DNA of 36,446 nucleotides, from positions 3,004 through 39,449 of the forward strand of contig LFSM01000032.1 in NCBI GenBank assembly GCA_001512745.1. The letters run 5' to 3'. Every line of letters starts with the position of its first letter. The stretch's first letter is position 1. The position numbers were made by a program, and so were the translations under genes. The notes under the pieces were generated by a model. That model was not told the DNA's origin and did not search any database. It worked only from the letters and a program-made list of their open reading frames with translations. Source of the DNA: Clostridiales bacterium DTU032. GTDB taxonomy: Bacteria; Bacillota; Clostridia; Saccharofermentanales; DTU023. Below, piece by piece: positions 2,973 through 9,318 of the stretch.

Positions 2973-3251
2973 ATGGCAGACAAAACAATTACATGCAAAG
3001 ACTGTGGCGCTGATTTTGTGTTCACAGAGGCAGAGCAGGAATTCTACCGCGAAAAAGGCTTTGAAAACGAGCCGGTTCGCTGTCAGAGCTGCCGCCAGGC
3101 AAGAAAACGCGAAAGAGGGAGCAACCGTGGTCCCCGTACCATGTATCCCGCCGTATGTGCCGAATGTGGAAAAGACACAGAAGTACCATTCCAACCCAGC
3201 GATAACAGACCGGTATACTGCAGAGATTGCTACAGACCCAGTAATCGCTAA
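2973..3251 (+). CDS. Zinc-ribbon / CxxC-x-CxxC protein
   Basis: MADKTITCKDCGADFVFTEAEQEFYREKGFENEPVRCQSCRQARK...CAECGKDTEVPFQPSDNRPVYCRDCY: four CxxC knuckles typical of this small-protein family. Confidence 0.85.
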   Translation: MADKTITCKDCGADFVFTEAEQEFYREKGFENEPVRCQSCRQARKRERGSNRGPRTMYPAVCAECGKDTEVPFQPSDNRPVYCRDCYRPSNR

Positions 3252-6179: not shown

Positions 6180-7820
6180 ATGAAGACAAAGTATATTTTT
6201 GTAACAGGTGGAGTTGTTTCAGGTCTGGGCAAAGGAATTACGGCTGCAGCATTGGGACGTTTGCTCAAAGCGAGGGGCTTGAATATCCGCAACCAGAAAC
6301 TGGACCCCTATATCAACGTTGATCCTTCATTAATGAGTCCGACCCAACACGGTGAAATATTTATAACTGAGGATGGTGCAGAAAATGATCTTGATATCGG
6401 TCATTACGAACGCTTTACCGATGTAAATCTGACTGCGGAAAGTGATATTACTTCCGGCCAGGTTTATCTTAATGTTATCAGCCGCGAACGCGCCGGCGAA
6501 TATGGCGGCGGCACTGTCCAGGTTGTTCCTCATGTTATTGATGAAATCAAAGATCATATCTATAAAGTTGGCGCAGTAGATGATGTTGACGTAGTCATCT
6601 CCGAAATCGGCGGCACCGTCGGTGACGTGGAAGGCCAGCCATTTTTGGAAGCTATCCGCCAGGTCTCCTATGATGTGGGACGTGAGAACTGCCTCTTTAT
6701 TCACGTAACGCTTTTACCATATTTGAAAAAACCCGGAGAGATCAAGACCAAACCCACCCAGCACAGTGTAAAAGAATTGCTCTCCTACGGTATACAGCCT
6801 GATATTCTGGTTTGTCGTACCGAGAAGGTGATGACAGCGGAGATCCGTAATAAGCTGGCACGTTTTTGCAATGTCCGCTTCGACTCTGTTATTCAGAATA
6901 TTGACTGTGCTTCTGTTTATGAGCTGCCTCTGGTTTTGGAAGAAGAAGGACTGGCTAATGTTGTCTGTGAACGCTTACAGATTGCACAGGGTGTTGAACC
7001 TGAGCTTGGTGACTGGATCCGTTTACTTGAAATGACCCGTACTAAGCGCCTGCCCATTAAAATAGCTTTGGTTGGAAAATACACAGAACTGCATGATGCC
7101 TACTACAGTGTTGTGGAGGCTATGGAGCATTCTGCTGTAGACATGGGACTGGAAGTGAAAATTAACTGGGTGGAGAGCCAGTTGCTCGAAGGAGTTTCTG
7201 ATGAAGAAGTTGCCCGCCATCTGGGCAGCCCTTCAGGTATTATTATTCCCGGAGGTTTCGGACCACGCGGAATGGAAGGTATGATCCGGGCTGCGCAATA
7301 CGCCAGGGAAGAAAAGATACCTTTCTTTGGCATCGGACTTGGTATGCAGATGGGCGTTGTGGAGATTGCACGCAATCTGGCAGGCCTGGCCAATGCACAT
7401 ACAGATGAGGCCGAAATACCCTGCCAGGATGTTTTCTTTTTCGACAATTTAACAGAGGAATATCGTGTAAAGATTAATGAGATTAATTTTGGCGACTTAC
7501 CCATAGTAAGCGGAGCACGTGAATTTGATATTGAAGAGGGAAGTTTGCTGCATGCCGTCTACGGCAGTTACCGGGCTTCTGAAAGACACCACCATCGCCG
7601 GGAGTTCAATCCTGCCTACATGACTCCTCTGGCTTCAACCGGCCTGAGGATGAGTGGTATTAACAGTGAATCGGGGAGAGTTGCGGCAGTAGAATTGCCG
7701 GATCATCCCTTCTATGTCGGCACGATCTTCCATCCGGAATTTAAGTCAAGACCGACAAGACCGCACAGATTATTTCATGCATTTCTGGAAAGTGCGCTGA
7801 AGCACAGTAAAGGAGAATAA
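6180..7820 (+). CDS. pyrG: CTP synthase with apparently inactivated glutaminase domain
   Basis: [61 protein letters not shown] and FHPEFKSRP. The nucleophile elbow reads FFGIGLGMQ instead of xxGICLGMQ. Confidence 0.96.
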
Positions 7821-7821
7821 G

Positions 7822-9318
7822 ATGGCAAAGATAGATTCCGAATTATCAAGAACCTTTAGTGAGTACCTCCTGCTTCCAAATCTGACAACCCGTGAGACAA
7901 ACACAGAAAACGTGTCCCTGGTCACGCCTCTGGTCAAGTACAAAAAAGGTGAAGAAGAGTGTCCGATTCAATTGAATATTCCTATGGTTTCGGCCATTAT
8001 GCAATCCGTATCCGGTGAACGCATGGCCATAGCTCTAGCTCGTTCCGGAGGCATGGCCTTTATTTTCAGCTCACAGACAATTGAGTCACAATGCGATATG
8101 GTACTGCGGGCAAAGAAGTATAAAGCGGGTTTTGTCAGCAGCGACAGTAACCTTAAACCTGATGACAAACTGTCAGATGTTTTGAAACTCAAAGAGAAGA
8201 CCGGGCACTCCACTGTAGCAATTACCGATGACGGCACTGCCAATGGCAAACTTGTCGGTATAGTGTCCAGCCGCGATTACCGGGTTTCCAGATTGTCGCG
8301 CGAAACTCCTGTATCCGAATTCATGACACCAATATCCGATGTGATCTACGGAGAAGAAGGTATTTCACTTTCTGAAGCCAATGACATCATCTGGGAGCAT
8401 AAGATAAATCAACTTCCGATCCTGGATAAAGATGGGCGCATGGTAGCTTTCGTTTTCCGCAAGGACTATGACAGACATAAGGAAAACCCGGCGGAATTAC
8501 TGGATGACCACAAACGTCTGATGGTGGGCGCAGGCATCAATACGCATGACTATATGGATCGTGTGCCTGCACTGATTGAAGCCGGTGCCGATGTCCTTTG
8601 CATCGACTCTTCCGATGGTTTCAGTGAATGGCAGAAAGACACCCTGGACTTTGTACGCAAGAACTATGGACCCGACTTCCCGGTCGGTGGAGGTAATGTT
8701 GTTGATGCAGAAGGTTTTCGCTATCTGGCAGATGCCGGCGCTTCCTTTATTAAAGTAGGAATAGGCGGCGGGTCAATCTGTATCACGCGTGAACAAAAAG
8801 GTATCGGCAGGGGACAGGCTTCCGCCTTATTGGCAGTGGCTGAGGAACGTAACCGCTATTTTGAAGAAACAGGTGTTTACATACCGATCTGTTCCGACGG
8901 TGGTATTGTTTTCGACTATCATATTGCCCTGGCTCTGGCCATGGGATCTGACTTTGTCATGCTGGGCCGCTACTTCGCCCGCTTTGACGAGAGTCCGGGA
9001 CGGACCTTATCCGTAAATGGAAACTATGTTAAGGAATATTGGGGAGAAGGCTCTGAGCGGGCAAGAAACTGGCAGCGTTACGAAACAGTCGGTGATGACG
9101 GTCAGATGCTCTTTGCGGAAGGTGTTGATTCCTATGTGCCTTATGCCGGCAAACTGAAGAACAATGTAGATAAGAGTCTGGCTAAGATAAGTGCTACCAT
9201 GGTTTCCTGTGGCTCTTTAAGCATCGATGAATTTCAGAAAAAGGCACGGCTTGTTGTTGTTTCGCCCACCAGCATTGTTGAGGGCGGAGCACACGATGTA
9301 ATCCGTAAAGATAGCTGA
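7822..9318 (+). CDS. guaB: IMP dehydrogenase with CBS domains (protist-like/Tritrichomonas-like subtype)
   Basis: [20 protein letters not shown] with catalytic Cys; [45 protein letters not shown]. Confidence 0.95.

Follow-up and report, generated by a model that had tools for sequence, protein, structure and literature searches.

In textbook accounts, the nitrogen for CTP, GMP and asparagine synthesis is channelled from glutamine in vivo, free ammonia being scarce in cells. Canonical CTP synthases (PyrG), such as those of E. coli, T. thermophilus and M. tuberculosis, combine a synthase and a glutaminase domain. GTP activation and ammonia coupling in this enzyme involve Thr51, a gate formed by Pro54, His57 and Val60, the residues Arg105, Asp107 and Leu109, the 436–442 motif, and Arg468 and Arg470 (PMC9138612; for the GTP contacts see also PMC8325340). 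CTP synthase accepts external ammonia in vitro (PMC9138612), as does GMP synthetase (PMC10526850), and the E. coli CTP synthase mutant G352P has almost full activity with NH4Cl at undetectable glutamine-dependent synthesis (PMC9138612). By analogy, the closest precedent for the protein described here is vertebrate CPS1, which retains a dead glutaminase domain with a Cys to Ser replacement, has its old ammonia tunnel blocked and uses free ammonia (PMC4655335). CPS1 is, however, another enzyme with another reaction, and a single enzyme of ureagenesis as opposed to several bacterial nucleotide enzymes. Single-domain NAD synthetase (NadE type N) likewise amidates with free ammonia in vivo and has no glutaminase, but this ammonia form is thought to be ancestral and is common (44% of genomes; PMC3376133). 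In a survey of approximately 800 genomes, which counted domains and not catalytic residues, pyrG, guaA and asnB were always glutaminase-fused (PMC3376133). A natural ammonia-only CTP synthase was not found in the open-access literature (subscription papers and preprints lay outside the scope of the search), in keeping with the first-pass annotation of this locus, whose author knew of no described natural family of this kind.

The window analyzed here, a stretch of 36,446 nucleotides from the 1.6 Mb metagenome-assembled genome (MAG) of Clostridiales bacterium DTU032, encodes a PyrG that departs from this scheme. The relevant features are as follows (residue comparisons from the alignment to E. 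coli PyrG; roles of the gate, coupling-loop and Arg468 positions after PMC9138612).

5102–6040, plus strand: glsA, glutaminase A (TIGR03814, 338 bits), beside pyrG only in the DTU032 genus
6180–7820, plus strand: pyrG, CTP synthase with disabled glutaminase domain, 546 aa (NF003792, TIGR00337, PF06418, PF00117)
6180–6977, plus strand: synthase (amidoligase) domain, residues 1–266, with Lys18, Lys40, Asp72 and Glu142 (E. coli 140) kept
6330–6359, plus strand: GTP-site and tunnel-gate residues, Thr51 replaced by Leu and Val60 by Ile, Pro54 and His57 kept
6492–6506, plus strand: L4 coupling loop, residues 105–109, Arg105 replaced by Ala and Leu109 by Gly
7047–7817, plus strand: degenerate class I glutaminase (GATase) domain, approximately residues 290–546
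7335–7337, plus strand: Gly386 (codon GGA) replacing the catalytic Cys (E. coli Cys379)
7494–7511, plus strand: position of the lost wing/GTP motif GG(T/S)MRL (E. coli 436–441)
7590–7592, plus strand: His471 at the GTP-site position of E. coli Arg468
7731–7739, plus strand: His518-Pro-Glu520 of the former triad, retained here and missing in some relatives
7822–9318, plus strand: guaB-like IMP dehydrogenase gene, downstream of pyrG (NF005493, 878 bits)

The pyrG frame encodes a complete CTP synthase (NF003792 CTP synthase, 710 bits; TIGR00337, 664 bits) with both domains in the expected order (PF06418, 401 bits; PF00117, 95 bits), which places it within the PyrG fold family. Its AlphaFold2 model (mean pLDDT 91.3, pTM 0.89) has E. 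coli CTP synthase as top PDB matches, full-length at TM 0.92–0.96 and 44–47% identity. The two-domain fold and the synthase active site are thus common to this protein and canonical PyrG, whereas the catalytic Cys, the GTP site, the L4 coupling residues and the tunnel gate are not. The first-pass annotation had read a Gly codon at the nucleophile position within an intact frame and a preserved His/Glu motif, and all three observations are borne out by the alignment and the unbroken ORF. With the Cys of the class I triad absent, the protein falls outside the glutamine-hydrolyzing CTP synthases, even though the His and Glu are in place; within the family these are missing from 7 and 11 of 33 sequences, respectively.

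The replacement is fixed in the family to which DTU032 belongs, DTU023 (Clostridia). Sequence search detected PyrG in 34 of its 38 genomes, all of them MAGs that are 68–97% complete, and 33 distinct full-length PyrGs representing six genera were aligned with a comparison set of 80 sequences from outside. All 33 carry Gly at the Cys379-equivalent site, as does the PyrG fragment of a further genome (L119 in G033), and they encode it by four codons (GGA 11, GGT 10, GGC 9, GGG 3); outside the family, 76/80 sequences have Cys. A base miscall, already thought unlikely in the first-pass annotation, is hard to reconcile with this diversity across separately assembled genomes. The ratio dN/dS is 0.003–0.019 in the synthase domain and 0.04–0.13 in the glutaminase domain, and these low values indicate that pyrG is functional and that even its glutaminase domain is still under purifying selection.

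Which residues were lost follows a consistent pattern. The synthase catalytic residues Lys18, Lys40, Asp72 and Glu140 (E. coli numbering) are identical in 33/33 family and 80/80 other sequences, and Pro54, His57 and Arg470 are invariant like them. On the other side of the balance, Val60, Arg105, Leu109, the second wing Gly and Arg468 are each kept in none of the 33 family sequences, and Thr51 is replaced. The wing Gly-Gly is kept in 0/33 as against 71 of 76 Cys-type sequences, and the Arg468 position is occupied by His throughout the family and by Arg in 80/80 others. Among the Cys-type PyrGs, 59 of 76 are unchanged at all eleven scored sites. In DTU032 PyrG the whole GTP-activation site (Thr51, Leu109, wing motif, Arg468) has been replaced. 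The earlier impression of an intact synthetase half therefore holds for the catalytic residues, but not for Thr51, Val60, Arg105 and Leu109. The family has been selective in what it lost, having given up the residues for glutamine hydrolysis, GTP activation and coupling and preserved those for UTP amination.

The gene neighborhood offers a possible substitute for the disabled domain. The end of glsA lies 139 bases before the start of pyrG, the two genes are neighbors in each of the five DTU032-genus genomes, and the glsA product has a clear profile match, so that GlsA might feed ammonia to PyrG in trans as the non-homologous half of a split amidotransferase. We regard this as improbable, because GlsA is absent from g6 (14 genomes) and g7 (seven genomes), both with Gly-type PyrG, and is located away from pyrG in g5. 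The Gly change must accordingly have preceded the pairing with GlsA or arisen without connection to it; GlsA is ruled out as a general PyrG partner and could at most be a local source of ammonia. Other candidate partners were rejected as well. A free-standing class I glutaminase acting in trans did not emerge in the DTU032 genus, where PF00117 matches only PyrG and a GuaA remnant, and no common upstream gene is apparent, since divergent ORFs of approximately 510–540 aa without Pfam match precede pyrG in g2, g4, g5 and g7, and 5′-nucleotidase-like genes take their place in g6. Downstream, guaB is the constant neighbor of Gly-type pyrG in every genus examined. Elsewhere in the window, positions 1419–2228 encode a membrane protein whose proline-rich repeats read APAPPQEPAPVQPQYA and whose C-terminal end is zinc-ribbon-like. 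The first 19 positions (AGATGTGTATAAGAGACAG) resemble a Nextera transposon adapter end, which the ORF at 3–425 starts by translating; as the window begins at contig base 3004, the adapter lies within the contig and might mark a misjoin.

Alternatively, the Gly-type clade could be a paralog with another function, CTP being supplied by cytidine salvage. This would fit the genomes G005, G006 and G010, which encode a Cys-type PyrG beside the Gly-type one, as well as G007, G008, G009 and G011, in which the sequence search found no PyrG although three of the four are at least 90% complete. In G005 and G006, moreover, the triad His and Glu are missing from the Gly-type proteins (L115, L117) as well (YEPQL). 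Against this, the Gly-type enzyme is the only PyrG in 31 of the 34 PyrG-bearing genomes, a second, canonical pyrG being found in none of them, its synthase residues are invariant and its dN/dS is very low, and we consider a paralog of different function as improbable as the GlsA arrangement. The Cys-type proteins of the three genomes are placed elsewhere in the tree, and this different grouping suggests their later acquisition.

It is more doubtful still that glutamine hydrolysis persists by means of a nucleophile at another position of the glutaminase domain. The retained His and Glu of DTU032 PyrG would be compatible with it, but C415, the only Cys that this domain has, is conserved in no more than 25/33 family sequences and can be found in ordinary PyrGs too; some relatives do without the His or the Glu, and the GTP site is lost. 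Sequencing error or a decaying pseudogene, which the draft state of the MAG and the adapter remnant at the window start might suggest, has next to no probability and is ruled out by the codon diversity of the 33 relatives, their open frames throughout and the purifying selection.

DTU032 PyrG is thus very probably an ammonia-dependent CTP synthase, a proposal that the first-pass annotation had derived from one residue and that the comparative evidence now supports and widens to several enzymes. According to this proposal, the N-terminal domain would phosphorylate UTP and then aminate it with free cytosolic ammonia as the amine donor. The C-terminal domain, in which glutamine hydrolysis should be impossible because the nucleophile is gone, would be retained as a structural part, and GTP would probably no longer be needed. 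In wild-type CTP synthase, external ammonia enters partly via the GATase side. With Val60 replaced by Ile or Lys, the altered gate might make such entry harder instead of easier, which counts against the proposal. The use of external ammonia by CTP and GMP synthetases and the active G352P enzyme nevertheless imply that DTU032 PyrG should be able to aminate UTP with free ammonia. It resembles G352P (PMC9138612) in its expected independence from glutamine; the latter is a laboratory point mutant, however, whereas the natural clade is also devoid of the Cys and of the GTP and coupling sites.

PyrGs without the Cys are not restricted to the family. Four of the outside sequences lack it, two with Gly (L040, G213) and two with Ser (G211, L098); judging by isolate names, L040 stems from a termite-gut Defluviitaleaceae and L098 from a termite-gut Bacteroidales, whose genome also contains a partial Cys-type PyrG on a separate contig. 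A pattern search of 391 genomes of the class, with a pattern covering part of the possible codons, yielded three true non-Cys PyrGs including DTU032; among its 30 matches only DTU032, G213 and G211 were PyrG, and the others were discarded. As an AU test rejected a single clade of all non-Cys PyrGs and the two Ser cases are separate, the sequences indicate at least three origins of the Cys loss overall. The Gly-type sequences taken by themselves may have a single origin, long branches meeting at this point of the tree. In all four outside genomes with a non-Cys PyrG, GuaA also lacks a working glutaminase domain, and CarA of G211 and of the L040 genome has Gly for Cys and a replaced His; HisH of G211 retains its Cys.

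Within the family, Cys-dependent amidotransferases other than PyrG have likewise lost catalytic residues. In GuaA of DTU032 (contig 86), the ATPPase and C-terminal domains are complete, but the N-terminal part has neither the Cys elbow nor the His-Pro-Glu motif. The GuaA glutaminase domain is gutted in 19/19 readable family genomes that have the Gly form as their sole PyrG; an intact GuaA is encoded by G005, G006 and G010, all with a Cys-type PyrG, and by G007 and G008, where PyrG was not detected. Beside its intact copy, G008 encodes a second GuaA (L157) whose glutaminase part is full-length but degenerate. The AsnB-type protein starts with MSDFIG, MSDYIG, MSDYFG or MADYFG instead of the expected MCGI in 5/5 genomes of the DTU032 genus, and it carries the only class II glutaminase domain detected in the DTU032 genome; none was detected in g6. 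An AsnB-type start with Asn for the N-terminal Cys (MNGIAG, L251) was seen in G006, whose GuaA and GlmS keep their Cys. PurF has Ser for Cys (MSGIVG) in five genomes of g7 and retains the Cys in g3, g4 and g5. CarA, TrpG, PabA and HisH were not detected in the DTU032 genome by PF00117. Glutamine synthetase was detected in 12/38 family genomes; by eye, contig 85 of DTU032 contains a glutamate synthase FMN domain-like ORF (L215:3658–5001) beside a 634-aa glutamine synthetase-like ORF. The use of glutamine (or asparagine) is not abolished, since one such amidotransferase, GatCAB, is present with an apparently intact GatA.

On these sequence comparisons, DTU032 PyrG is best explained as belonging to a set of enzymes in which glutamine has repeatedly been given up as the amide donor. 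We consider it fairly likely that several unrelated anaerobe lineages, namely DTU023, two further lineages within the class and the termite-gut Defluviitaleaceae and Bacteroidales, have repeatedly lost Cys-dependent glutaminases in several amidotransferases at a time, and form CTP, GMP and asparagine, and in some cases carbamoyl phosphate and phosphoribosylamine, from free ammonia. An ammonia-rich habitat might plausibly have removed the selection for glutamine-channelled nitrogen.

One practical consequence is that automatic annotation is misled, as DTU032 PyrG passes as a "glutamine hydrolyzing CTP synthase" and the gutted GuaA exceeds the NCBIfam cut-off for a "glutamine-hydrolyzing GMP synthase." If the proposal is correct, the glutaminase half of these enzymes would be dispensable under some conditions and would have been dropped repeatedly and from several enzymes, and natural ammonia-only CTP and GMP synthases would become available for the study of GTP control and ammonia tunnels. 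For the family DTU023 itself, the predicted enzyme set implies that nucleotides are made from free ammonia and not from glutamine.
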